A stretch of DNA of 53,119 nt from Campylobacterales bacterium (GTDB lineage Bacteria; Campylobacterota; Campylobacteria; Campylobacterales; Sulfurimonadaceae). A program made the translations under genes and the position numbers. The notes under the pieces are model-generated. The model ran no database searches. It was not told the DNA's origin and worked only from the letters and a program-made list of their open reading frames with translations. Below are positions 4,741-39,633 of the stretch, in pieces (position 1 is the stretch's first letter; each line of letters starts with the position of its first letter). The DNA is taken from the NCBI GenBank assembly GCA_014859655.1, contig JACUTT010000011.1, positions 1-53,119 on the forward strand, read 5' to 3'.

Positions 4741-5207
4741 ATTAGAGCCCTATAGGACGAAAAGTTCTGCTTGATCGCTTCATATAGAACGATCCCCGTG
4801 CTGATGGCCAGGTTTAGACTCCTGCCCTCTTTTGTCATGGGGATAGTGATGCATCTGTCCTTATGCTTTTCTAGAAGTTCTGCTGGAATTCCCTTTGTCT
4901 CGCTTCCAAAGAAGAGGTAGTCGCCTTCTTTAAAAGAGGCCTCGAAGTAGGGTCTGTCTGTTTTTGTGGTCGCAAAAAAACCCTCGGCAGCCCTGGGGTT
5001 TTGCTCAAAAAACTCTTCAATATTCTCCCAGACATGCAGATCGATCTTGTGCCAGTAATCAAGCCCTGCTCTTCGCACGGCTTTTTCGTTTATGTCAAAG
5101 CCCAGCGGCTTTATGAGATGCAAAGATGCGCCTGTGTTAACACAGAGTCTTCCTATGGCCCCCGTATTGTTGGGGATCTGAGGGTGCACTAAAACAAGGT
5201 TGAGCAT
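4737..5207 (-). CDS. trmL: tRNA (cytidine/uridine-2'-O-)-methyltransferase TrmL
   Basis: A 156-aa SPOUT-class methyltransferase that 2'-O-methylates the wobble nucleotide 34 of some tRNA-Leu, using S-adenosylmethionine. Visible hallmarks are the N-terminal HPQIPNNTGAIGRLC motif, the mid-protein FFGSETKGIP (SPOUT motif 2) and the C-terminal knot segment IPMTKEGRSLNLAISTGIVL. The length is normal for TrmL. It starts directly after purU, with no gap between its ATG and the purU stop codon, and overlaps the small membrane ORF downstream. It belongs to the same minus-strand operon as leuDB and purU. Confidence 0.95.
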   Translation of the reverse strand: MLNLVLVHPQIPNNTGAIGRLCVNTGASLHLIKPLGFDINEKAVRRAGLDYWHKIDLHVWENIEEFFEQNPRAAEGFFATTKTDRPYFEASFKEGDYLFFGSETKGIPAELLEKHKDRCITIPMTKEGRSLNLAISTGIVLYEAIKQNFSSYRALM

Positions 5208-6044
5208 CTAGAATATGACCGTTTTATTCTTATGGACAAATATTCTGTCTTCAAGTGCGAGTTTGAGCGCGCGCGAAAGTGTTACCTTCTCAACGTCTCG
5301 TCCTGAACGCTGCATATCTTTCCAGCCGTGGTCATGGCTGACGCTGATAACGTCTTGGGAGATGATCGGCCCCTCGTCCAGGTCGTTGTTTACAAAGTGT
5401 GCGGTTGCACCAATGATCTTCACCCCTCTTTCATACGCCTGTTTATAGGGATTTGCCCCTATGAACGAGGGGAGGAACGAATGGTGGATATTGATGATTC
5501 TGTCTTGATAAGCATCCACAAAATTTGACGTCAGTATACGCATGTATTTGGCCAAGATGATATAGTCGATCTCTTCAAACTGACGTAAGCACTCCAAAAC
5601 CTTTGCCTCATGTGCTTCACGATCAAGCCCCTCGTGCGAGACGCAGTAAAAAGGAATGTTGAACTTCTCCACTAAGGGTTTAAGGAGTTCATAATTGGAA
5701 ACCACGCCGATGATATTGGCGTCAAGCTCCCCTGCCTCATAACGTATAAGGATATCGCCCAGACAGTGAGACTCTTTTGTCACCATTAAGACAATATTTT
5801 TAGCCGAAGGAGAGACAACATGAAAGTTTACATTTTCATCCAAAACGCGCTCAAGCGCCTCTTGTAGGGTCTGTTCTTCTATGTCACCTTCGACCACTGT
5901 TCGCATAAAAAATTTTTTATTTTCGCTATCGACGAATTCGTTGTTTGACAAGATGTTGAGCTCAAGTTCATAAAAAAGCTTTGAAATCTTGAAGACCAGG
6001 CCCTTTTGATCGGCGCAGTCTATTAAAATACGGAAGTGGTTCAT
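5208..6044 (-). CDS. purU: Formyltetrahydrofolate deformylase
   Basis: PurU hydrolyses 10-formyl-tetrahydrofolate to formate and tetrahydrofolate, balancing one-carbon pools. The 278-aa protein has an N-terminal ACT domain (about 1-80) and a formyltransferase-fold domain. Its catalytic triad is Asn185 and His187 in NIHHSFLPSF and Asp223 in DLDEGP. The length is typical. Its ATG overlaps the stop of the CiaD-like gene as ATGA, and trmL follows immediately. The whole run is one operon. Confidence 0.96.
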   Translation of the reverse strand: MNHFRILIDCADQKGLVFKISKLFYELELNILSNNEFVDSENKKFFMRTVVEGDIEEQTLQEALERVLDENVNFHVVSPSAKNIVLMVTKESHCLGDILIRYEAGELDANIIGVVSNYELLKPLVEKFNIPFYCVSHEGLDREAHEAKVLECLRQFEEIDYIILAKYMRILTSNFVDAYQDRIINIHHSFLPSFIGANPYKQAYERGVKIIGATAHFVNNDLDEGPIISQDVISVSHDHGWKDMQRSGRDVEKVTLSRALKLALEDRIFVHKNKTVIF

Positions 6045-6361
6045 TTACTCTCTTTCAGTTCATTTAAACGCGTTTCGATGGAAGAGAGAAGGTACTCGAA
6101 AAAGTTAAGCGTAAGATCGACTTTGGCTTCGATGTTGGCATTGTTTGGCGACTGAAAGCCTTCAAAAAGGACATGTATCCGCTCTTTCATGTTCTTCAAA
6201 AAGATAGCCTCATTATGTGTTGAATCCAAGGCCTCCTGGCTTGCCTGACCGAAGGAGATATTAGGTGTGCGGTTCTCTTTGTGAAGAGTTTGTCTGTTTT
6301 CCGGCTCTTTGGGGTGCTCCAGCTCTTTGAGCGTAGATAAAATAACGTCTTTTAGTTCCAT
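6041..6361 (-). CDS. CiaD-like hypothetical protein
   Basis: A 106-aa acidic, helical protein starting [18 protein letters not shown] take the ATG at 6361, which overlaps the TPR gene by about 10 nt; the frame stays open further upstream. It resembles, from memory, the short Campylobacter protein CiaD (Cj0788), which also sits next to purU. The C-terminal half (ANIEAKVDLTLNFFEYLLSS) looks like a conserved helix. In Campylobacter jejuni CiaD is a host-delivered factor, but a free-living relative needs another, unknown role. No signal peptide is seen. The family call rests on synteny and weak recall. Confidence 0.55.
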   Translation of the reverse strand: MELKDVILSTLKELEHPKEPENRQTLHKENRTPNISFGQASQEALDSTHNEAIFLKNMKERIHVLFEGFQSPNNANIEAKVDLTLNFFEYLLSSIETRLNELKESK

Positions 6362-6600
6362 AATTTTAACAGCCACCTTTCAAATTCATTAAACTCTATC
6401 GGATCTTCCATTGTGATAAAAAACTCTTTCATCTGCTCGTTACAGCCAAGGAATTTTTTCCGCATTCCGCTCAAACGGCGTATGGCGATCTTGGCATCGG
6501 CATTGTTGGGGTCTTTTTTTAAGATCTCTTGATAAATCTCCAGCGCCTCCTCTTTGAGGCCCTGGAGCTCATAGATATTGGCGAGAGTTAGTGTTTGCAT
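6352..6600 (-). CDS. Short TPR protein
   Basis: An 82-aa protein with one clear tetratricopeptide unit at residues 1-36 ([20 protein letters not shown] followed by [11 protein letters not shown]). A basic helix and an acidic, aromatic C-terminus follow. Such proteins bind peptides or other proteins. It begins inside the last codons of leuB (13-nt overlap) and runs into the CiaD-like gene, so it should be translationally coupled to both. The partner is unknown. Confidence 0.75.
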
Positions 6601-7664
6601 TGTGCCGCGTAGTTGGCAATGATCGAGCCCATTTCGCTTGTGGAACAGACCTCTTTGGCATCATACATACTGATGTCTTTTGTGCGGTACCCCTCTTTGA
6701 GCGCCTTGGTGATCGCCATATCTATCTTGTCTGCAGCCTTTGTCTCTTTGAGCGCATAACGCAGCATCATCGAGGCGCTCGCTATAGTGGCGATCGGGTT
6801 GGCGATCCCCTGCCCTGCGATATCCGGAGCCGAACCGTGGATGGGCTCGTAAACACCGACCTTGCTTCCTACAGAAGCCGAGGGAAGAAGCCCGATAGAG
6901 CCCGAAAGCATGGAAGCTTCATCGCTCAAGATATCGCCGAAGATATTTCCGGTCAGCATAACATCGAACTGTTTCGGGTCACGGATAAGCTGCATGGCCG
7001 CATTGTCGACATACATATGAGAAAGTTTGACTTCAGGGTACTCTTTGGCGACCTCCTCCACTTCCTCTCTCCACAGTTGGCTAACATCAAGCACATTTGC
7101 CTTGTCAATTGAGCAGACGCGCTTGTCACGCTGCATGGCGAGTTTGAAGGCGACATGCGCGATGCGGTTGACCTCAAAGCGGCTGTAGACCATCGTGTTC
7201 CAGCCCTTGTTCTCATCGCGTCCCTTCGGCTCGCCGAAATAGATCCCGCCGATGAGCTCACGCACCACCATAAGGTCAACGCCTTTGATGATCTCGGGCT
7301 TTAGACTGCTGGCGTTGATGAGTTCGTCATAAACAGTCGCAGGACGGAGATTGGCAAAGACGCCGAGCTCTTTTCGAAAACGAAGAAGGCCGGATTCCGG
7401 GCGTTTTTCGCGTGGTAGCGTGTCCCACTTCTCCCCGCCTATCGCGCCAAAAAGAACCGCGTCACTCTCCATAGCTACGGTGATCGTCTCTTGAGGAAGG
7501 GGATCGCCATGGACATCATAGGCGATCCCGCCCATCAATACCTCTTCGTAGTTGAGCTCGAAACCTTCGCAGGCCGCTACCGCGTCAAGTACCTTAACCG
7601 CCTCATCAATGATCTCCGGACCGATTCCGTCGCCTTTTATCAGCGCAATTTTATAGCTTGCCAT
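6588..7664 (-). CDS. leuB: 3-isopropylmalate dehydrogenase
   Basis: LeuB oxidises and decarboxylates 3-isopropylmalate with NAD+ in leucine synthesis. The 358-aa product shows the family pattern GDGIGPEI at the N-terminus, the substrate-binding [20 protein letters not shown] stretch, the [12 protein letters not shown] loop and the NAD-binding [18 protein letters not shown] at about residues 275-292. The start overlaps the leuD stop (TAATG). The length and all motifs are normal. Confidence 0.97.
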
Positions 7665-8164
7665 TAGTTAGCCTTTTGTATTTCTTGTTGTGCGAAACTC
7701 ATCAATCCGCCCGCAGCAATAAGCTCTTGCATAAAAGGAGGAATAGGCGTGAATTTATAGGTATTGTCGGTGGTAAGATCTGTGATCGTTCCGGCATCCA
7801 TGTCAATCTTTATCTTATGCCCCTCTTTTATCTCAGCACTCTCGGGGAGCTCGAAAATAGGAAGGCCCATATTAAATGCGTTACGATAGAAGATCCGCGC
7901 AAATGTCGGTGCTATGACTGCAGCCACGCCTGCTGCTTTCAGTGCGATCGGAGCGTGTTCTCGGGACGAACCGCATCCGAAGTTATCGCCGGCAACGATG
8001 ATATCGCCCTTTTGCATGTTTGTTACGAATTGCGGATCGGCGTCTTCCATGACATGTTTGGCAAGTTCTTCGGGAACGGAAGTGCTCAAATATCTCGCAG
8101 CAATGATAAGATCGGTGTCGATATCCTTGCCAAAGTTCCAGACTTTACCTTCAATAGTTTGCAT
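7664..8164 (-). CDS. leuD: 3-isopropylmalate dehydratase small subunit
   Basis: LeuD is the swivel-domain subunit of isopropylmalate isomerase and needs LeuC, which is not in this window. The 166-aa protein contains the typical [21 protein letters not shown] opening in parts, then [19 protein letters not shown] (about residues 60-78). I choose the ATG at 8164 because AGGA sits 8 nt before it; an in-frame start at 8179 is also possible. It opens the leuD-leuB-TPR-CiaD-like-purU-trmL operon, and a TAGAAT -10-like box lies about 31 nt upstream. Confidence 0.95.
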
Positions 8165-8230
8165 TAGTAGGTCCTGCATAAATAAATTTTCGTGATTCTA
8201 ACAAAAATGAGGTTTAATGTAGTTTAAAAG

Positions 8231-8248
8231 TGATCCCGGGAAGGATCA
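8231..8248 (-). terminator. Hairpin downstream of flgG
   Basis: TGATCC and GGATCA form a perfect 6-bp stem with a 6-nt loop, about 33 nt past the flgG stop. On the minus strand it is followed by CTTTTAAACT, a weak T-run. It plausibly ends the flgF-flgG transcript before leuD. Confidence 0.5.
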
Positions 8249-8281
8249 TATTACTTAGTAGAAGCTTGCTTTTAGCCGGTG

Positions 8282-9070
8282 TTAACGTTTGAGATTAACA
8301 ACAGTCTGCAGCATTTCATCGGATGTCGTGATGGCTTTAGAGTCAGCCTCGTAGGCTCTCTGCCCTGTGATGAGCTCGGTCAGTTCAACCACAAGCTGGA
8401 CATTTGAAAGCTCGATAAAGCCCTGTCTTAGTGTTCCTAGTCCGTTCAGGCCCGGGGTGTCTTCAATCGGAATGCCTGATGCTTCAGTCTCAAGATAGAG
8501 AGTGTCTCCTAAAGAGTGCAGGCCTGCTGGATTGATAAAGTTGATTGTCGTGATCTGGCCGATCTGAGTGCCTTGGGGTTGGCCCGGCTGCATGACCGTG
8601 ACGATTCCGTCTGTGCCTATACTGATGTCGGTTGCATCATCGGGTACTACGATCTCAGGAAGAAGCTTATAGCCGTCTGAGTTTACCAAGGCCCCATTTT
8701 GATCCAGCTTGAATGCGCCGTTTCGTGTGTAGGATTCTATTCCCGTAGGAAGCTCGACTTTAAAAAACCCCTTTCCCGTGATAGCAATATCGAGGTTGTT
8801 TGCTGTCTGTTTCAGGTTGCCCTCGGTGAAGATTTTTGTGATCGCAGTCGGGCGTACTCCCAGACCGACTTCTATGCCTGTGGGCGATTTGGTGACCTGA
8901 GACGTGCCTGTACCCGCATACTCCAAGGTCTGATACATCAGATCGGCAAACTCTGCACGAGAGGACTTGAAGCCGATGGTGTTGACATTGGCAATGTTGT
9001 TTGAGGTGTTGTCGATGAGGAGCTGTTGCGCCATCATCCCGGTCGAAGCTGTATAGAGTGATCTCATCAT
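8282..9070 (-). CDS. flgG: Flagellar basal-body distal rod protein FlgG
   Basis: FlgG forms the distal rod of the flagellar basal body in the periplasm. The 262-aa sequence has the expected N-terminal ALYTASTGM-type helix (MMRSLYTASTGMMAQQ) with DNTSNNIANVNTIGFKSSRA, a middle domain and the C-terminal core helix ending in QRAYEADSKAITTSDEM. Length matches FlgG (about 260 aa). The 11-nt gap to the upstream flgF-like gene and the single sigma-54-like promoter in front of that gene argue for one transcript. Confidence 0.97.
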   Translation of the reverse strand: MMRSLYTASTGMMAQQLLIDNTSNNIANVNTIGFKSSRAEFADLMYQTLEYAGTGTSQVTKSPTGIEVGLGVRPTAITKIFTEGNLKQTANNLDIAITGKGFFKVELPTGIESYTRNGAFKLDQNGALVNSDGYKLLPEIVVPDDATDISIGTDGIVTVMQPGQPQGTQIGQITTINFINPAGLHSLGDTLYLETEASGIPIEDTPGLNGLGTLRQGFIELSNVQLVVELTELITGQRAYEADSKAITTSDEMLQTVVNLKR

Positions 9071-9081
9071 AATTTAAGTCC

Positions 9082-9906
9082 TTATGCCTTGGTCGAGGCT
9101 AGTTTTTCAATTGTGTCGCGGTTCATTTCGTTCATCTGCGTGTCCATGGCTTTTTGATACATTTCCACCAGCCGCTGGGCCTCGATCATGCCTACCATCG
9201 AGCGGATGGCATTAACATTGCTTTTTTCCAAGAAGCCTTGCGAAACGGCTCCGGAGTTCACGACAGGTTCAAGTCTGTCGGCGAGATCAGGTGTGAAAAG
9301 ATTGTCACCAGAGGGCTTGAGTCTGTTCATGTTTTGCGGCTCGACAAGCAGAAGGTCTTTTCCCACAACAAAACGATTGTTTCCGGGCAGAAGATAAGAA
9401 AACTTCCCGTCTTTGTCCAGCTCCACATTCTTGGCCTCTACATTAAATTCAATAAAATCGCCCGTCTGTTCATAATCTGCCGGGAGGACCCTGTGCCCTT
9501 GTTTTGTGACAAGTTCGCCTAGATCATTTAGCGAAAACGCCCCATCTTTGGTCAGTTTGACGCCATCGGGGGTCAGTACAGCAAAAAAGAGGTTTTCTTC
9601 TTTGAGCGCGACATCAAAACTGTTAGAGGTCTGCTGAAATGCTCCGACACTCATGTCGCGATAGGAGTCGATCACCTGGGGAACGCGCGCCACTGTTCTG
9701 TGCGTAAACTTGGCGGCCTCTTTGGTGTGGTTTTCAAGAGGCAGTTCATCTCTCTTCTCTTGATACAGACGCAAGAAGTCTCCAACGACCAGATCTTGCC
9801 GTTTGTATCCGTTGGTGTTTAGATTAGCAAGATTGTTGGCGATGTTGTCAAGTCGTGAAAACTGCGCAACCATCCCGCCCGCAGCAGAATAGAATCCATT
9901 TTGCAT
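9082..9906 (-). CDS. flgF: Flagellar rod protein FlgF/FlgG2
   Basis: A 274-aa proximal-rod protein of the FlgF/FlgG family (named FlgG2 in Campylobacter). It carries MQNGFYSAAGGMVAQ, LDNIANNLANLNTNGYKRQD and the C-terminal core helix SMVGMIEAQRLVEMYQKAMD. The middle domain differs from FlgG. AAGGAG precedes the ATG at 9906, and a well-spaced sigma-54 box lies 31-46 nt upstream. It is first of a two-gene operon with flgG. Confidence 0.94.
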   Translation of the reverse strand: MQNGFYSAAGGMVAQFSRLDNIANNLANLNTNGYKRQDLVVGDFLRLYQEKRDELPLENHTKEAAKFTHRTVARVPQVIDSYRDMSVGAFQQTSNSFDVALKEENLFFAVLTPDGVKLTKDGAFSLNDLGELVTKQGHRVLPADYEQTGDFIEFNVEAKNVELDKDGKFSYLLPGNNRFVVGKDLLLVEPQNMNRLKPSGDNLFTPDLADRLEPVVNSGAVSQGFLEKSNVNAIRSMVGMIEAQRLVEMYQKAMDTQMNEMNRDTIEKLASTKA

Positions 9907-30022: not shown

Positions 30023-30859
30023 CTACTTTTGCATCTGCGCAATATCTTGTGCAAAACTGACTTTTTCGCCGCTCTTGACAAAGATCTCCATTTTCTCAGC
30101 GATCAGCACGATGGTCGAGCCCATCTGGAAGCAGCCGAAGTCATCGCCCTTGTTCAGGTACAGCTCTTTATACTCATAGGCTACGCTCTCTCGCAGGTCG
30201 CCATTGGTGACGATTCTTGGCTCAAAAGAGACATCCATTCTTCCTACATTCAGCGCGCCCACAAGGACCATGTAAAAAAGCTCATCGTCTTGGGTATAGC
30301 ACTCGATGACCACCCTTTCGTTTTCGATGAAGAGATCGGGCATCTTGTTCAGATAGGTGAAGTTTACCGGATAGAGTTTGCCCGGAATATGCACAGCTTT
30401 TGAAATGCGGCAGTTTAGCGGGATGTGGTAACGGTGGTAGTCGCTCGGCGAAAGATAGAAGTTGATAAAACGGCCGTTTTTGATCCGGTGCTTCTTGTCC
30501 GCGTCGATGAAAGAGCCCAAAAGCTCGTCGACCTTGTACTTCATTCCCTTCACCTGCAAAGAAGAAAAATCATGGATCTTGCCGCATTCGCTGACCAGTG
30601 CATCACAGGGAGAGATCATGACAGAACCGTCTCTGTTGAAAGAGCGCGGCTCTCTGAGGTGGCGGGTAAAAAGCTGGTTTAAGCTGGCATAGCTTGAAGC
30701 CGGATGGAACTCGCCCATATCCAAGCCCATCAGTTTTACATACGAGGCGTTGATAAAGCTCTGTACCGGCGCAGGAAAGGACGCGGAGGCAAAACGGCCA
30801 AAAATCTGCGAAAGTGCGGAGGTGATGTGTCTATTCTTCAATGGTGTTTCCTTCTTCAT
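30023..30859 (-). CDS. psd: Phosphatidylserine decarboxylase proenzyme
   Basis: Psd makes phosphatidylethanolamine from phosphatidylserine at the inner membrane. The 278-aa proenzyme has the charge-relay region YLSPSDYHRYHIP (about 136-147) and the self-cleavage motif MGSTIV; Ser248 becomes the pyruvoyl group (usual motif LGST, here MGST). The start is ATG 30859, inside the end of truD (29-nt overlap); a TTG at 30841 behind AAGGAA is an alternative. Length is normal for the short class. Confidence 0.94.
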   Translation of the reverse strand: MKKETPLKNRHITSALSQIFGRFASASFPAPVQSFINASYVKLMGLDMGEFHPASSYASLNQLFTRHLREPRSFNRDGSVMISPCDALVSECGKIHDFSSLQVKGMKYKVDELLGSFIDADKKHRIKNGRFINFYLSPSDYHRYHIPLNCRISKAVHIPGKLYPVNFTYLNKMPDLFIENERVVIECYTQDDELFYMVLVGALNVGRMDVSFEPRIVTNGDLRESVAYEYKELYLNKGDDFGCFQMGSTIVLIAEKMEIFVKSGEKVSFAQDIAQMQK

Positions 30860-31952
30860 AGTTTCTGATTTCGCGTTTTGCGAGTTCCTCGATCAGCACG
30901 GTTGCGTAGGAGCCCTTAGGCAGGGTGAAATGCATCTCGTACCAGGCCTTATCCTCTTTGTACTCGGTATCGATCTCTTCGGGAAAGACGAAGGCATATC
31001 GGCGTGTTCCGTCTTCGTTCATCGGCGTATCAAACTCTTTTTCTACCGTATGGGCGATATCTTCGCTCTTTTTAACCTTCTTGCCCGGAAGAAGTCCCGT
31101 CGGGGCACGGTCTTTTTGGGAGAAAAGTTTGGCCTCTTCTTCGAGATCTTCAGCGTAAAATATTTTACCATAAGGGTAGTGCATGCACAAGTCCCCCGGC
31201 AGCATTTTAAAAGGATGGGGCTGTTTCTGTATCCGTTTGACAAGCGAAAGCTCCAGATTTAAAACCTCGGAAACTTCGTTTGCCGACAAGCCCGAACACA
31301 GACGGCTTATCTCTATGCGGCGGCTCAGCCAGAGATTGAAAAGATGGCTCTGGTAGGCCGAGACGAAAAGTCTTGCTTTTTTCTTGTTCTTCTCTTTTCG
31401 TTTCCCCTCGACGATCTCGCGGCCGAGCTTGTAGTTGTCCCCGTCGTTGCCGAAACGCTGATAGCCGAAGTAGTTGGGCATCCCGTCTTTGGAGATGTGT
31501 TTGATCGCCTGGTCAAGCTTCAATGCAGACAGAGGTAGAACTTTTTTCAGACGGATAAAAAAGCGGTTTCCCTTAAGATGGCCAGTGCGTATCTTGTTGT
31601 TATGGCGTACGGAGGAGAGGATCTTGATCAAGGGATGTTCAAAGCTCTTTATCGCCTCTTCTATGCGCGCGGGCACCGAGATATACTGAGTCGTCAGGGC
31701 GTTTTTGTCTTTAAGACCTGCCGTACCGACCTCTTTTGCCTTGCATCCGGTCGTGTTGCAGATGATATCGACCATCTCCCAAGTCGTCAGGTTCTTTTTG
31801 CGCACATGCAAGACGAGATGCTCGCCCTCGCCGCTAAACTCGTACAGAGGGATCTCATCCACAACAAAGTCACGCGGTGACTGGGCAAAATGGAAGTCTA
31901 TGGAGGAGTGATTAAGATAATAGTTTCGGTTCAAAAGTGGTGTGCCTTGCAT
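30831..31952 (-). CDS. truD: tRNA pseudouridine(13) synthase TruD
   Basis: A 373-aa enzyme that makes pseudouridine at position 13 of tRNA-Glu. The catalytic motif GTAGLKDKNALTTQ is present, as are PRDFVVDEIPLYEFSGEGEH near the N-terminus and the MPNYFGYQRFGNDGDNYKLG stretch. The TRUD insertion domain lies in the middle. It overlaps thiL by 22 nt at its start and psd by 29 nt at its end. Confidence 0.95.
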   Translation of the reverse strand: MQGTPLLNRNYYLNHSSIDFHFAQSPRDFVVDEIPLYEFSGEGEHLVLHVRKKNLTTWEMVDIICNTTGCKAKEVGTAGLKDKNALTTQYISVPARIEEAIKSFEHPLIKILSSVRHNNKIRTGHLKGNRFFIRLKKVLPLSALKLDQAIKHISKDGMPNYFGYQRFGNDGDNYKLGREIVEGKRKEKNKKKARLFVSAYQSHLFNLWLSRRIEISRLCSGLSANEVSEVLNLELSLVKRIQKQPHPFKMLPGDLCMHYPYGKIFYAEDLEEEAKLFSQKDRAPTGLLPGKKVKKSEDIAHTVEKEFDTPMNEDGTRRYAFVFPEEIDTEYKEDKAWYEMHFTLPKGSYATVLIEELAKREIRNYEEGNTIEE

Positions 31953-32758
31953 TTGGATTTGTAGTTCTGTCGTTTTGCTATAGCAAATATTTGTAAAGCG
32001 CAGCGCGTCGCCTTGGCTATTCGCTGCACTTTTTTTCTCTCCCGCGGCGAAAAAGCAATGAGCATCTCATACTCTTCTCCGCTGCAGCCCACGGCTTTGT
32101 CGATAGGCTTATAAAACTCAAATCCAAGGCGGTTGACAAGGGAGAGTTTTTTCAGATCGGCAAAGAGTCCGTCCGAGATGTCCATGCCGCAGCGAAGCGA
32201 CGAGCCAGCCTTGGAAATAAATCTCTGGCGGAGCTTCGGTGCATAAAAACGCCCTCTTCTCACCGACTTGACCCCTCTTAGCAGCGCATTGAGCGTTTTT
32301 TTTGAACTTCCAAGTTCACCGGTGTAGGCTACAAGATCGCCCTCTTTCAGCCCGCTTCTTTTCAAAGGGCGCTTGCTTTTAGCAAGGACCGTGACGGTGA
32401 TATCTATCTTGATGTTTGATATGGTATCGCCGCCGATGATCTCTATGCCAAACTCTCTGGCCGCTCTATCAAAGCCTCCAAAAAGCTCTTTAAGTTCGGC
32501 CGGACGCAGTGTGGAGGGCACGGCAACGGCCAAAAGCGCATACAAAGGATCGGCATTCATGGCAACAGCATCTGAAATATTGACGAGCATTGCCTTGTAG
32601 GCGATCTCTTCAAGACTGAACCATTCCCGCTTAAAATGCACGTTTTCAAAAAAAGCATCTTTTGAGATAATCCAGTCGTCCACAATGGCAGCATCGTCTC
32701 CGATTTTTTTGGAACGGAAGCAGGAGATGAAAAAATCTTCTTTATTCAAAAAATACAT
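31931..32758 (-). CDS. thiL: Thiamine-monophosphate kinase
   Basis: ThiL phosphorylates thiamine monophosphate to the active diphosphate with ATP. The 275-aa product is short compared with the usual 310-330 aa but keeps KKIGDDAAIV, SDAVAMNADPLYALLAVAVP, EIIGGDTISN and the GMDISDGLFADL motif. The ATG at 32758 lacks a good ribosome site at close range. It begins the thiL-truD-psd-unknown operon. No TPP riboswitch is seen upstream. Confidence 0.9.
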   Translation of the reverse strand: MYFLNKEDFFISCFRSKKIGDDAAIVDDWIISKDAFFENVHFKREWFSLEEIAYKAMLVNISDAVAMNADPLYALLAVAVPSTLRPAELKELFGGFDRAAREFGIEIIGGDTISNIKIDITVTVLAKSKRPLKRSGLKEGDLVAYTGELGSSKKTLNALLRGVKSVRRGRFYAPKLRQRFISKAGSSLRCGMDISDGLFADLKKLSLVNRLGFEFYKPIDKAVGCSGEEYEMLIAFSPRERKKVQRIAKATRCALQIFAIAKRQNYKSKCKAHHF

Positions 32759-34149: not shown

Positions 34150-34263
34150 TTCATGTCTCAAACAGTAACACTCCCATCTAAACAGCACAAACTCCCCTCT
34201 TTCAACCTACTTCAAGCCATGCATAGCTATAATCCACCAAAAATATTTTCGGAGGAATTGCGA

Positions 34264-35976
34264 ATGAGTATTCCTATTTATACTTACGATGCGGTAATTG
34301 TTGGTGCAGGGCTTGCGGGCTGTGCAGCGGCACTTGAACTGCAAAAAGCCGGCAAAAAGGTCGCGGTTATCACAAAACTGCACCCTTTGCGTTCACACTC
34401 AGGGGCTGCTCAAGGCGGTATCAATGCGGCATTCAGCGAGGCAGACAGTGTTGAACTGCACGAGTTTGACACGGTAAAAGGTTCTGACTACCTGGCCGAT
34501 CAGGATGTGGTTGAGTTTATGTGTAAGAATGCCCCGGAAACGGTGCGTTGGATCGAGCGTATGGGCGCGGCCTTCTCGCGTACGGATGACGGCAAGATCG
34601 CACAGCGCCCCTTTGGCGGACAATCCTCACCGCGTGCCTGTTTCGCAAAAGACCGCACGGGACTTACACTCTTGCAGACGATCTATGAGCAGGCAAACCG
34701 CCATGGTGTTACCTTTTGGGACGAGTGGTATGCCGCAGATCTTCTGTATGAAGATGGAAAAGTATACGGCGTAGCCGCTTATGATATTCGTAACTCCGAA
34801 AGAGCGATCTTTAACGCTAAAAGCGTCATGTTCGCCACCGGCGGATATGCACGTGCTTTCAAGATCAACTCCAATGCCCACGCCAACACAGGTGACGGAC
34901 TTTCACTGGTTGCGCGCCATGGACTTCCACTTGAAGATATGGAGTTTGTGCAATTCCACCCATCGGGACTCTCCGGAAACGGTGTTCTTATCTCTGAGGC
35001 AGCGCGTGGGGAAGGCGGACGTCTTCTCAACTCTGAGGGCGAGCGTTTTATGGAGCGTTATGCGCCTAACGCGCTGGAGCTTGCTTCTCGCGACGTGGTT
35101 GCGCGTGCTATCATACAGGAGATCCGCGAAGGCCGCGGTGTAGGTCCGCGTAAAGATGCGGTCTATATCGACCTTGTGCATCTTGGCAAAGAGAAGATCA
35201 TGGAGAGACTTCCTGAGCTTCGTGATCTGGCCATCACCTTCTTGGGCCTTGACATGATCAAAGAGCCTATCCTTATCTCTGCCACGGCACACTACTCGAT
35301 GGGAGGTATTCCCTGCGACGTCGACGGGCATGTGCGCAAGAACAACACCGAGTTCGTAGAGGGCTTCTACGCAGCGGGCGAATGTTCTTGTGTCTCTGTC
35401 CACGGTGCGAACCGACTGGGCGCGAACTCTGTGCTTGAGGCGCTTCTTTTCGGCCGTTTTGTCGGCAAGTCGATGGTCAATGACATTGACGGCATCGAAC
35501 TGCGCAAAGCCACACAGGCTGACGCGGACGCTATGAATAAAGAGATCGACTGGGTCCTGAGCAACAACGGTACGGAAAAAGTCGCTCTTCTTCGCAACGA
35601 GCTGCAACAGTCGATGACAGACAATGCCGGTGTTTTCCGAACAGAAGAGACGCTGATCAAACAAGTTGCCATCATGAAAGAGCTGCAGGCACGTTACAAA
35701 AACATCCGTATCGAAGACAAGTCAAAGATCTTCAATACCGAACTGCAAGAAGCGATCGAGTTTGGACATATGCTTGATTACTCGCTCTTCATCGTCGAGA
35801 GTGCTCTGGCACGCAAAGAGAGCCGGGGTGCGCACTTCCGCGAAGATTTTACCGCGCGTGATGATGAGAACTTCTTGAAACACACCATGGCCTACATGGA
35901 CAAAGACGGAAAAATCAAGCTAGACTACATGGACGTCATACTGGGCAAACATGAACTTAAAGCCAGAAGCTACTAA
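34264..35976 (+). CDS. sdhA: Succinate dehydrogenase/fumarate reductase flavoprotein
   Basis: The 570-aa FAD subunit starts at ATG 34264 behind GGAGG; the open frame extends 37 codons upstream without ribosome site. It has the dinucleotide fold [18 protein letters not shown], the flavin-linking His in [47 protein letters not shown] and [18 protein letters not shown]. There is no twin-arginine signal, unlike periplasmic MfrA of Campylobacter, so this should face the cytoplasm. With sdhB and sdhE it forms a type-E complex on menaquinone. Confidence 0.96.
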
Positions 35977-35986
35977 GGAGAGAGAC

Positions 35987-36967
35987 GTGAGTGAGATCAA
36001 AACACAAAAAATTACCTTCAAGGTATTTCGTTTCAACTCTGAAACTGACTATCTTCCGAACTATATCGATTATGAATTGGAAGTCACACACGAAGAGGTT
36101 GTGCTTGACATCTTGAACCGCATCAAATGGGGGATGGACGGCTCGCTTTCCTACCGCCGTTCATGCCGCCACGGTATCTGCGGTATCTGTTCTGTTAAGG
36201 TTGCCGGCAAGGCGATCCTGGCCTGTAAAGAGAATGTCCTCAGCCTGGTAGCCGCATTCGGCACTGAACTCGTCATTGAGCCGCTGAGCATCAAACGCGC
36301 GATGAAAGACCTTATCATCGACAAGGGAGACTTCTGGAGCAAGCATGACCAGATCAAACCTTACCTGATCAGCGAGATCGAAGAGTATCCTGAGACAGAA
36401 AACCTGGTCACACCGCAGCAAGCAGAAGCGCTCAACGAAGCGGACTACTGCATACAGTGCGGTGCCTGCCACTACTCCTGTCCTGCGCTTGAGATCAATG
36501 AGCAGTTCATCGGGCCGGCAGCCTTTGCCAAGGCTTTCCGTTTTGAAGCTGACGTACGTGACGAGGCCGGAAACGAGCGTCTAAACATCATTAATGCTCC
36601 CGAAGAGGGAGTGTGGGACTGTGTCAAATGTATGGAGTGTGCGGAAGTCTGTCCGAAAGATGTCAATCCTATCGAGAAGATCACTCAGCTTCACAACATG
36701 GTCTTTAGCGCAGGCGTAGCCAAAAACAATATCGCAACACGCCACGCGGTCTATTTCAAAGACTCAATAGCAAAACACGGACAGCTCAATGAGGCCGGTC
36801 TGGTCATCTATTCTGAAAAAGGCTACGGGATGTACAAACACCTCAAAGTCGGCGCCAGAATGATCGCCAAAGGCAAGGCGCATATCAATCCGTTTATCGT
36901 TCCAAAATCTGACAAGATGGATGAGATCGCCAAACTCGTCAAATCTTCGTCAAGCGCGAAATTTTAA
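35987..36967 (+). CDS. sdhB: Succinate dehydrogenase/fumarate reductase iron-sulfur subunit
   Basis: The 326-aa subunit begins with GTG 35987 behind AAGGAGAGAG, 10 nt after sdhA; the longer frame would start inside sdhA. The [2Fe-2S] set is in RRSCRHGICGICSVKVAG plus LAC. The two cubane-cluster motifs are CIQCGACHYSCP and CVKCMECAEVCPKDVNP. It passes electrons between the flavin and SdhE. The N-terminal stretch FRFNSETDYLPNY also recurs in the degenerate protein at 38.6-39.6 kb. Confidence 0.97.
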   Translation: MSEIKTQKITFKVFRFNSETDYLPNYIDYELEVTHEEVVLDILNRIKWGMDGSLSYRRSCRHGICGICSVKVAGKAILACKENVLSLVAAFGTELVIEPLSIKRAMKDLIIDKGDFWSKHDQIKPYLISEIEEYPETENLVTPQQAEALNEADYCIQCGACHYSCPALEINEQFIGPAAFAKAFRFEADVRDEAGNERLNIINAPEEGVWDCVKCMECAEVCPKDVNPIEKITQLHNMVFSAGVAKNNIATRHAVYFKDSIAKHGQLNEAGLVIYSEKGYGMYKHLKVGARMIAKGKAHINPFIVPKSDKMDEIAKLVKSSSSAKF

Positions 36968-36978
36968 GGAGTACAACA

Positions 36979-37857
36979 ATGTCTACACTGAAATATGCAC
37001 TATTTACCGGTTGTACTGCACGTCAAAGTACGCCCGAGCAGATGATGTCAACGATGGCCATCGCTGAAAAGATGGGAATTGAACTGGAGATCTTGGAAGA
37101 AGCGACCTGCTGTGGCGCGTCGCACCTTCAAGATTTTGACGACTTTTTGTCGCTCGTTCTCAATGCGCGCAATATCTGCTATGCGGAAAAACGCGGCATG
37201 ACCATGGTCACGATCTGTAACACCTGTCAGCTCAACACGATGATGACCAAACGCCGTCTCGACAAAGATCCTGAGCTAAAAGCACGCGTCAATGAGAAGC
37301 TTGCCGAAGTCGGTCTTGAGTACAAAGGCGAGTCTGAAATCAAACACTTTTTGTACGCGATCATCGACGATTTTGGTCTTGAGAACTTAAAAAAGATGGT
37401 AGTCAAGCCGCTTAGCCAGTTCAATATCGCACCCTTCTACGGATGCCATAATATCCGCCCTTCGGAGATACACGAAGAGTCAAACGGGCATGAAAATGCC
37501 TATGCACCTCGATCGCTTGACGACCTTATCTTGGCCTGCGGCGGCGTGAGTGTTAATTATGCAGAGAAGAACAAATGCTGCGGTTTCCATGCCGAGCTTC
37601 AAGCGCCTCACACGGCAGCTGTCTTGACCGGCAATGCGATCATGGGAGCCATGGATAACAATGCTGACTGGATGGTAACACCCTGCCCGCTTTGTCACCT
37701 CAAGCTTGACACCCAGTACGAACACGCCTCCAAGGCAGTCGGACGTGAGGTTAAGCTCCCGGTGCTTCATATGCAGCAGATGATAGGACTCGCGTTTGGG
37801 ATTTCCGGCAAAGAGCTGGGCTTGCAGCATCACGTGAGTGAAGTAAACTTCGTCTAA
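36979..37857 (+). CDS. sdhE: SdhE/HdrB-like CCG-domain subunit
   Basis: A 292-aa protein with two cysteine-rich CCG domains, as in heterodisulfide reductase HdrB and type-E SdhE/SdhC. The first reads EATCCGASH with CNTCQLN, the second FYGCHNIRP, KCCGFHAEL and CPLCHLKLD. These bind iron-sulfur clusters and anchor the enzyme to the membrane for quinone reaction. GGAG precedes the ATG. A strong bidirectional terminator follows. It closes the sdhA-sdhB-sdhE operon. Confidence 0.94.
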   Translation: MSTLKYALFTGCTARQSTPEQMMSTMAIAEKMGIELEILEEATCCGASHLQDFDDFLSLVLNARNICYAEKRGMTMVTICNTCQLNTMMTKRRLDKDPELKARVNEKLAEVGLEYKGESEIKHFLYAIIDDFGLENLKKMVVKPLSQFNIAPFYGCHNIRPSEIHEESNGHENAYAPRSLDDLILACGGVSVNYAEKNKCCGFHAELQAPHTAAVLTGNAIMGAMDNNADWMVTPCPLCHLKLDTQYEHASKAVGREVKLPVLHMQQMIGLAFGISGKELGLQHHVSEVNFV

Positions 37858-37913: not shown

Positions 37914-38327
37914 TTAGAGCACTTTTTTAAGCTGCTCTTTCAGCTCCGGATTGTCGTTAAGCGTTTTCTTGAACGCCTCTTGATTTAGGAGCATATTTGA
38001 AGCATCATTTGGATATTTTCAGGATCACTCATTAGCTTTCTTCGCATCGTATCTCTGAATCGCAACTGTTCCTGCTGCATCTTTTGTTGATGCTCGCTCA
38101 TCATCTTTTGCATTTCCGGATCGCTCATTATCCTCTTTTGGGCGTCAGCACCCATCATACCCATCATGTTCTGCTGCTGCATAGCATATTGCATCATGTG
38201 TCTATTCTGCATCTCTTGATTGTTCATGCCCATGCCGCCTTTTTGCATCGTTCCAGCAGCGTCTGCTGCATGTGCCCCCAAGTGTGAGTATTCCTGCTGC
38301 CATTGCTGTAGTTAGCCATCGTTTCAT
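37914..38327 (-). pseudogene. Broken Met/Gln-rich exported protein, two indels
   Basis: Read with two single-base corrections, this is a 137-aa exported protein. AAGGAA precedes ATG 38327 and a signal peptide MKRWLTTAMAAGILTLG. The next frame then supplies AHAADAAGTMQKGG, a natural AHA-AD cleavage site, and a body rich in Met and Gln (for example HMMQYAMQQQNMMGMM). The last part is LLNQEAFKKTLNDNPELKEQ. The first break is at the G5 run (38275-38279 on the plus strand as C5; four would restore the frame). The second is at the AAA run (37996-37998; four would restore it). Only 37985-38281 is open as written. It may bind copper(I) or form a periplasmic helical protein. It is either a pseudogene or a sequencing artefact. 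Confidence 0.75.
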
Positions 38328-38499: not shown

Positions 38500-39633
38500 T
38501 TACAAGAAAGAGATTTTGACCTTGTGATCGTCGAAGCCTAGTTTTGCGCGGTCCCTCTCTCCTTCAAGCAACTGCACGAACTGTTCTTGGCAGATGACGC
38601 TTAAGCCTATCTCACGGCCCGTCAGACGCTACATCTTTGCTTGGTTCTTGTCAAAAAAGTCACGCATTTTTTCATTTTTAACCAGAATAAAGTCGGCATT
38701 TTTGTCCATCGCCTGCAGCAGTATGTCTCCCGCGATCATGCAAGAGAAGTTCTTGTCAACATGCTGTGAGTATGGGGTCATGTCTTCATGTTTTGAGGGG
38801 ATATTGATATGGACGGCACCGCTTTTTTCAACAAGAGACTCGATCGTGCCCGGCTCGGTCCCCTCGTAGGTGGCTATATTGAAACCGGCAAAGTCCCGAC
38901 TTTCTTGAACGGAAATTTCTTCGCTCTGCCTGTTTGTTCCCTCTGCAGGCAGAGGGCTTTCTTTTTGGAAAAAGTCACGGATCTTTTTGCCAATCTTTGA
39001 TTTTGGTTCGGGTTTTAACATTTTGAGACACTTTTTCAGAAGCTGTTCTATTGTTGCTTCTTCTGCACTGTCGTAGCTAAAGAGTCTGTTTTTCAATGAA
39101 GAGTGGTACCAGACGCCATTGTCCTTATCGCTTAGCAGACGCAGAATCTCTTTTTCATTTTCAGGGTGCTTTTCGATGATCTCGGCCGCACACAGAAGGA
39201 CATGGTCACCTATGTAGTCTCGTTTGTAGTTGAGGGTGTTGGAGGCGTAGTAGTGCAGCTCTGTACGTTTAAGGCAGCTCTCTTTCTCCTCCTGGCTCAT
39301 GTAGGGTGCAAGCAGGTCCAGTTTTGAGGCGAGATCGCTTTTGTCGATTTGAAGGTCTTTATAGACCAGAAACTCACTCGCCGGCCCTATCGTGAGTGTT
39401 TCTCCGCATCGGCTTATCACATCTGCAATGCGTTCGCTCGATCTTAAAAAATAGTGGTTAATCTTGCAGACACCCTCTTTGTCAAATCCAAAAGGCTGAA
39501 TCAAATTTATTTTTTCAAAAAGATCAGCTATCGTCTCATCGCTGCTATAGGAAACGCTATGCTTTGTGTAGTAGGGAAGATAGTCTGTACGACTGTCAAA
39601 CCTAAATAATTCCACCTCTGTCTTAGCCATCAT
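38500..39633 (-). pseudogene. Cysteine-poor SdhB/SdhE-like fusion with in-frame amber
   Basis: The frame starts at ATG 39633 (or 39630) behind GGAG and runs 334 codons to TAG at 38629-38631, then continues for 42 more sense codons to TAA 38500-38502. The N-terminal half matches the SdhB of this window: FRFDSRTDYLP versus FRFNSETDYLP, and KDLQIDKSDL versus KDLIIDKGDF. The C-terminal half matches the second CCG domain of SdhE (FNIA, then AMDKNADF). After the amber, TGREIGLSVICQEQF aligns without gaps to VGREVKLPVLHMQQM of SdhE. The iron-sulfur cysteines are lost. It converges on sdhE and may be a structural partner. I think related Campylobacterota genes exist as a DUF family near sdh, from memory only. 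Confidence 0.8.

Follow-up and report, generated by a model that had tools for sequence, protein, structure and literature searches.

An iron-sulfur-free SdhB–SdhE paralogue of the Campylobacterota as a candidate scaffold for complex II assembly

The contig examined here (JACUTT010000011.1, positions 1 to 53,119, hereafter the window) belongs to a Campylobacterales bacterium of the Sulfurimonadaceae and carries an sdhABE operon, encoding a type-E succinate dehydrogenase, followed on the opposite strand by a small methionine-rich gene and by a gene whose product resembles SdhB fused to the C-terminal half of SdhE (Table 1). The fusion gene starts at one of two ATG codons (39633/39630) preceded by a GGAG ribosome-binding sequence. 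The initial annotation had placed a single open frame at 38500-39633; the interval does correspond to a real gene, but the in-frame TAG within it had been overlooked. Beyond this codon the frame remains open for 42 codons until it reaches a stop at 38500, and the residues encoded there (RLTGREIGLSVI...LGFDDHKVKISFL) constitute the C-terminus normal for the DUF5644 / HdrB-like_C family, the profile of which spans the whole gene across the single TAG. Nearly all of the locus is shared, at high protein identity, with the closest relative of the window (L094 / G301), a sister species that the genome collection lists in the genus of the window; its public record label, 'Arcobacter sp.', looks wrong.

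Table 1. Features of the window around sdhABE and the fusion gene
Feature	Position	Strand	Remarks
truD	30831..31952	minus	recurrent neighbour of the family
thiL	31931..32758	minus	recurrent neighbour of the family
sdhA	34153..35976	plus	
sdhB	35951..36967	plus	intact, 12 cysteines
sdhE	36979..37857	plus	CCG protein, 10 ligand cysteines
small methionine-rich gene	37917..38327	minus	between sdhE and the fusion gene; two frame changes
SdhB-like/SdhE-C-like fusion gene, whole reading frame	38500..39633	minus	one amber codon inside; family profile match 38503-39630
ordinarily translated part	38629..39633	minus	333-334 aa
in-frame TAG	38629..38631	minus	codon 334 counted from ATG 39630
beta-grasp domain, like the SdhB [2Fe-2S] domain	39331..39627	minus	residues 2-100; cluster loop deleted
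DUF5644 segment, equivalent to the SdhB C-terminal helical domain	39025..39309	minus	residues 108-202; no cubane cysteines
linker	38896..39018	minus	residues ~205-245; low confidence in the AlphaFold model
HdrB/SdhE second-CCG-like domain	38503..38886	minus	residues 249-376, last 42 beyond TAG; no CCG cysteines

BLASTP aligned the N-terminal part of the fusion protein with the SdhB of the window (25% identity, E 8e-16) and its C-terminal part with the second CCG half of SdhE (E 2e-5), and the family profile matched both the SdhB profile (E 1.2e-28, columns 5-211) and the SdhE profile (hhalign, E 2.2e-19). Among Pfam models, DUF5644 (PF18712) scored 42.2 bits on the window protein, above its gathering threshold of 25, and 43.9 bits in the genome search; HdrB-like_C (PF22196, threshold 33.4) gave 28.3 for the read-through window protein and 34.0 for the intact protein of the sister species, and Fer2_3 scored below threshold. 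The AlphaFold model of the read-through protein, built with 51 relatives as input, had a pLDDT of 92.1 and a pTM of 0.86 and was weak only in the linker. Foldseek searches of the PDB with this model returned 3KWL first (E 3.6e-17, TM 0.81 by query length), followed by many SdhB/FrdB chains and then by HdrB chains. The resemblance of the two halves to SdhB and to the second CCG half of SdhE, which had been proposed from motifs that are indeed present in the sequence, is therefore upheld by alignment, profile and fold, and the unrelated fold that would have spoken against it did not appear when the protein was modelled alone. Chance similarity is ruled out by the profile and fold evidence. On the basis of these comparisons, the protein shares descent and fold with SdhB, and its C-terminal half shares descent with SdhE/HdrB.

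The gene belongs to an already catalogued but uncharacterised family, defined by the Pfam domains DUF5644 and HdrB-like_C. The family profile matches 3KWL over its full length (E 5.7e-96), and the window protein has the same fold and domain order. 3KWL is an uncharacterised Helicobacter pylori protein that we take to be HP0468, with the DUF5644 and HdrB-like_C domains; it is homologous to the window protein throughout, its sequence relatives are likewise free of cluster cysteines, and it differs in being about 500 aa long and in having both CCG-like halves, the first of which is missing from the window protein. To our knowledge, H. pylori has no sdhABE. HP0468 is reported to be up-regulated by hydrogen and to be a genome-wide association hit of unknown function (PMC6090961), and it figures as a DUF5644 protein among the Helicobacter genes compared for flagellar sheaths (PMC9570263); a literature search for the presumed C. 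jejuni tags of the family found no paper.

Within this common fold, the iron-sulfur ligands have been lost. None of the 12 SdhB or of the 10 SdhE ligand cysteine columns is conserved as a set in the aligned relatives (alignment rows L032/L063 and L033/L054 are without their first residues, which does not affect the conclusions), and the SdhB cluster loops are deleted or shortened. Of the seven cysteines in the window protein, one falls in a cubane column of the alignment, and this one is not conserved among the relatives. No [2Fe-2S], cubane or CCG pattern was found in any of 128 distinct family members, as compared with [2Fe-2S] and cubane patterns in 48 of 49 SdhB and CCG patterns in all 55 SdhE. 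The claim that the protein is metal-free is hence supported by sequence, profiles and predicted fold, and the search for homologues retaining iron-sulfur cysteines, which could have overturned it, found none; a redox-active variant is likewise ruled out among these 128 members. Because all cluster ligands are gone, the alignments show that the protein would be unable to carry electrons as SdhB and SdhE do.

Comparison with known proteins sets the family apart from each of them. With SdhB/FrdB it shares the beta-grasp and helical domains and the FRF(D/N)..DYLP.Y and EPLS..(K)DL.ID motifs, but it lacks the [2Fe-2S], [4Fe-4S] and third-cluster cysteines together with their loops, and so does not have the ligands of the three clusters that mark SdhB/FrdB. 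With SdhE/HdrB it shares the second CCG-like half, including the D.GAD, GRE(I/V).LPV and LG..H segments, but the ten cysteines of the two CCG motifs are lost and the first CCG half is absent from the short fusions. The domain order, SdhB-like then HdrB-like, is also that of TfrB-type proteins (fumarate reductase CoM/CoB subunit B, a fusion of SdhB and HdrB), the model of which (NF004898) matches both the SdhB and the SdhE of the window. TfrB is a catalytic iron-sulfur protein, whereas the family has no cluster sites.

Family members occur in three architectures: two adjacent genes encoding an SdhB-like protein of ~210-260 aa and an SdhE-like protein of ~230-300 aa; a fusion of ~500 aa, exemplified by 3KWL, in Helicobacter-type genomes; and a fusion of ~330-410 aa that lacks the first CCG half, the form present in the window. 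The stand-alone E-like relatives align with SdhE over their full length (E 8e-28). On the inferred tree, the SdhB-like parts form a single clade (SH-aLRT 99) that is closer to E-type SdhB than to FrdB or MfrB; the exact sister of this clade is uncertain owing to long branches. In some Campylobacter-type genomes, two-gene pairs (L037 7079-8432 and L077 1501-2853) lie inside the clade of fused forms, and this nesting suggests that the fusion may have been split again.

The copy in the window is probably not a healthy example of the family. Family genes were found in five of the six genomes searched in the genus, and four of these five are free of the stop; in the sister species, at L094 8001-9125, the frame is open, with Gln at the TAG position. 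A recoded TAG is ruled out by the normal reading of sdhA, sdhB and sdhE in the window and by the open frames of the four congeneric relatives. The fusion protein is 72% identical to that of the sister species, where SdhA reaches 96%, and its amino-acid divergence also exceeds that of the flanking genes. Synteny with the sister species is complete, and over 38500-39630 the synonymous divergence (pS) of the gene is 0.72, against 0.41-0.49 in the flanking genes, which suggests local recombination or relaxed codon selection; one mis-registered pair, a 177 aa gene, is left out of this comparison with the flanking genes. With a dN/dS of about 0.08 against the sister species, codon substitution shows a pattern of purifying selection on the gene. 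The end branch of the window copy on the tree is 0.24, as against 0.13 in the sister species, and the adjacent methionine-rich gene, intact in that species (133 aa, with a signal-like N-terminus), is broken twice. With relatives intact and the adjacent gene frameshifted, the window copy is probably decaying, or else its sequence is faulty; the segment resembles a local patch in which change and decay are accelerated, or in which the sequence is poor. The chances are about even that the gene has no function here at present, as a dying remnant or an artefact of the sequence, a reading that is compatible with any view of the family as a whole. Set against it are the family's clear signs of selection elsewhere and the 42 codons beyond the TAG, which retain 81% identity to the sister species without decay, so that the stop must be very recent, an error, or read through.

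Gene order links the family with complex II. The genes thiL and truD are recurrent divergent neighbours of family members, and at five loci (L100, L101, L136, L158 and L172) divergent thiL is followed by the family gene, sdhA, sdhB, sdhE and then desulfoferrodoxin. In L043 the family gene and sdhA share 4 bases, and in L044 the two are 40 bases apart. In the window's taxonomic family it is placed upstream of sdhABE and divergent, downstream on the same strand, or downstream and convergent. The distance to sdhABE is at most about 5 kb in 13 of the 15 sampled genomes with both; in the other two the genes lie on different contigs, as is also the case in two species from the genus of the window. 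At the L200 locus (4963-9782, minus strand) the family gene follows frdC-frdA-frdB on the same strand after a gap of 109 bases, which connects the family with complex II a second time and independently; sdhABE is found within a few kilobases of this locus. Sulfurospirillum-type loci present thiL or truD, then the B-like gene, the E-like gene and desulfoferrodoxin, with no sdhABE between. Desulfoferrodoxin (superoxide reductase) recurs just after sdhE, at L171 as well as at the five loci above, and also after the B-like and E-like pair in the Sulfurospirillum-type loci. Together, these arrangements show that the linkage to sdhABE is ancestral and that it is not obligatory.

The distribution of the family does not follow that of sdhABE. 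Profile matches (E 0.001) were obtained in 252 of 298 Campylobacterota genomes, a figure that includes true SdhB; family counts rest on a Pfam-only search, which under-counts, and on a broader profile, which also matches true SdhB at weaker E-values. Strong matches occur in most Helicobacteraceae, Campylobacteraceae, Arcobacteraceae and Sulfurospirillum-type genomes. SdhE was found in 116 and FrdB in 236 of the 298. Most Helicobacteraceae, Campylobacter-type and Arcobacteraceae genomes keep the family gene without sdhABE, and in Helicobacter, Campylobacter and Arcobacter it lies elsewhere than beside that operon; it is present, with no SdhE, in most Helicobacteraceae and Arcobacteraceae. Two draft genomes, G148 and G174, have an intact family gene and no detected match to SdhB/FrdB, and G148 also has none to SdhA. 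A strict association with sdhABE or FrdABC is ruled out by genomes that keep the gene with neither detected. Conversely, of 151 genomes in the taxonomic family of the window, only 17 carry the gene (about 89% are without it), although SdhE is present in nearly all members sampled, indicating that complex II does not need it there. Being kept without sdhABE and absent from most relatives with sdhABE, the gene is neither required by nor dependent on that operon. The expectation that homologues would always lie by sdhABE accordingly fails: the gene adjoins the operon in most genomes with this Sdh type and is elsewhere kept without it. The proposed role, whether as decoy, as assembly clamp or as regulator of the type-E enzyme, is supported only in part. 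In ancestral-type loci the gene order connects the family with sdhABE, and in one case with frdCAB; its retention without sdhABE, including the two drafts with no detectable complex II, and its loss from most sdhABE-bearing relatives speak against such a tie. The recognition of an iron-sulfur-free SdhB/SdhE fusion was right, and the connection with the type-E enzyme is plausible by ancestry and not general.

These data would fit a cofactor-free SdhB–SdhE paralogue acting as a scaffold, probably first for complex II assembly, an overall explanation that we favour tentatively and hold at somewhat under an even chance. A single origin early in the Campylobacterales, probably through duplication, at the sdhABE locus, of the sdhB-sdhE pair, would account for the pieces, which persist as two adjacent genes, as the full fusion in Helicobacter and as the shortened fusion here and elsewhere. 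The resulting rigid body, shaped like B joined to E, would most likely serve as a protein-binding scaffold, and its original role may have been the assembly or stabilisation of complex II enzymes (SdhABE, perhaps FrdABC), with the B/E-type surface occupied before or beside the real subunits. In the window copy, from which the amber codon removes the last 42 residues, this function is probably being lost. We know of no cofactor-free complex II scaffold of this kind described elsewhere. The [2Fe-2S]-binding loop of SdhB faces the flavoprotein, and its deletion makes docking on SdhA in the manner of SdhB doubtful; conserved gene order, moreover, may be a matter of inheritance. The specific proposal that the scaffold serves SdhABE and FrdABC assembly or stabilisation in Campylobacterota and was carried over to Helicobacter pylori and Campylobacter is rather unlikely. 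In Wolinella succinogenes, SdhABE can be produced and manipulated (PMC2680327).

A substantial possibility, though one we would still bet against, is that the SdhB–SdhE-shaped body was recruited outside complex II, for example as a cytosolic adaptor or as a scaffold for another enzyme, the proximity to sdhABE being a footprint of the duplication. The genomes that keep the gene without sdhABE, where it lies beside pepF, murA or thiL/truD, and the two drafts agree with such recruitment, as does the fast divergence relative to SdhA; adjacency to sdhABE nevertheless survives four placements (upstream divergent or same strand, downstream same strand or convergent), and one frdCAB arrangement exists. 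A decoy or negative regulator competing with SdhB or SdhE for partners, and thereby lowering complex II activity, would suit a fold that mimics both subunits and for which electron transfer is impossible, but it is very unlikely, since much of the surface through which SdhB makes contact comes from the cluster loops that are deleted or shortened here, and loss or retention of the gene does not track sdhABE. Least probable of all is a sensor or enzyme that binds some other ligand, whether a metal, a thiol or a small molecule. In its favour are the conservation of the family and its stable fold; against it, the structure-search records name no cofactor for 3KWL, and the conserved positions (D-Y-x-P-Y, EPLS..DL.ID, YIGD, GREI.LP) include no cysteine and look structural.

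The scaffold reading bears on a family found widely across a phylum that includes important gut and stomach bacteria; its structure, 3KWL, has been deposited since 2010 without an assigned role. Recognition of the family as a metal-free SdhB–SdhE paralogue that ancestrally preceded sdhABE offers a first concrete hypothesis.
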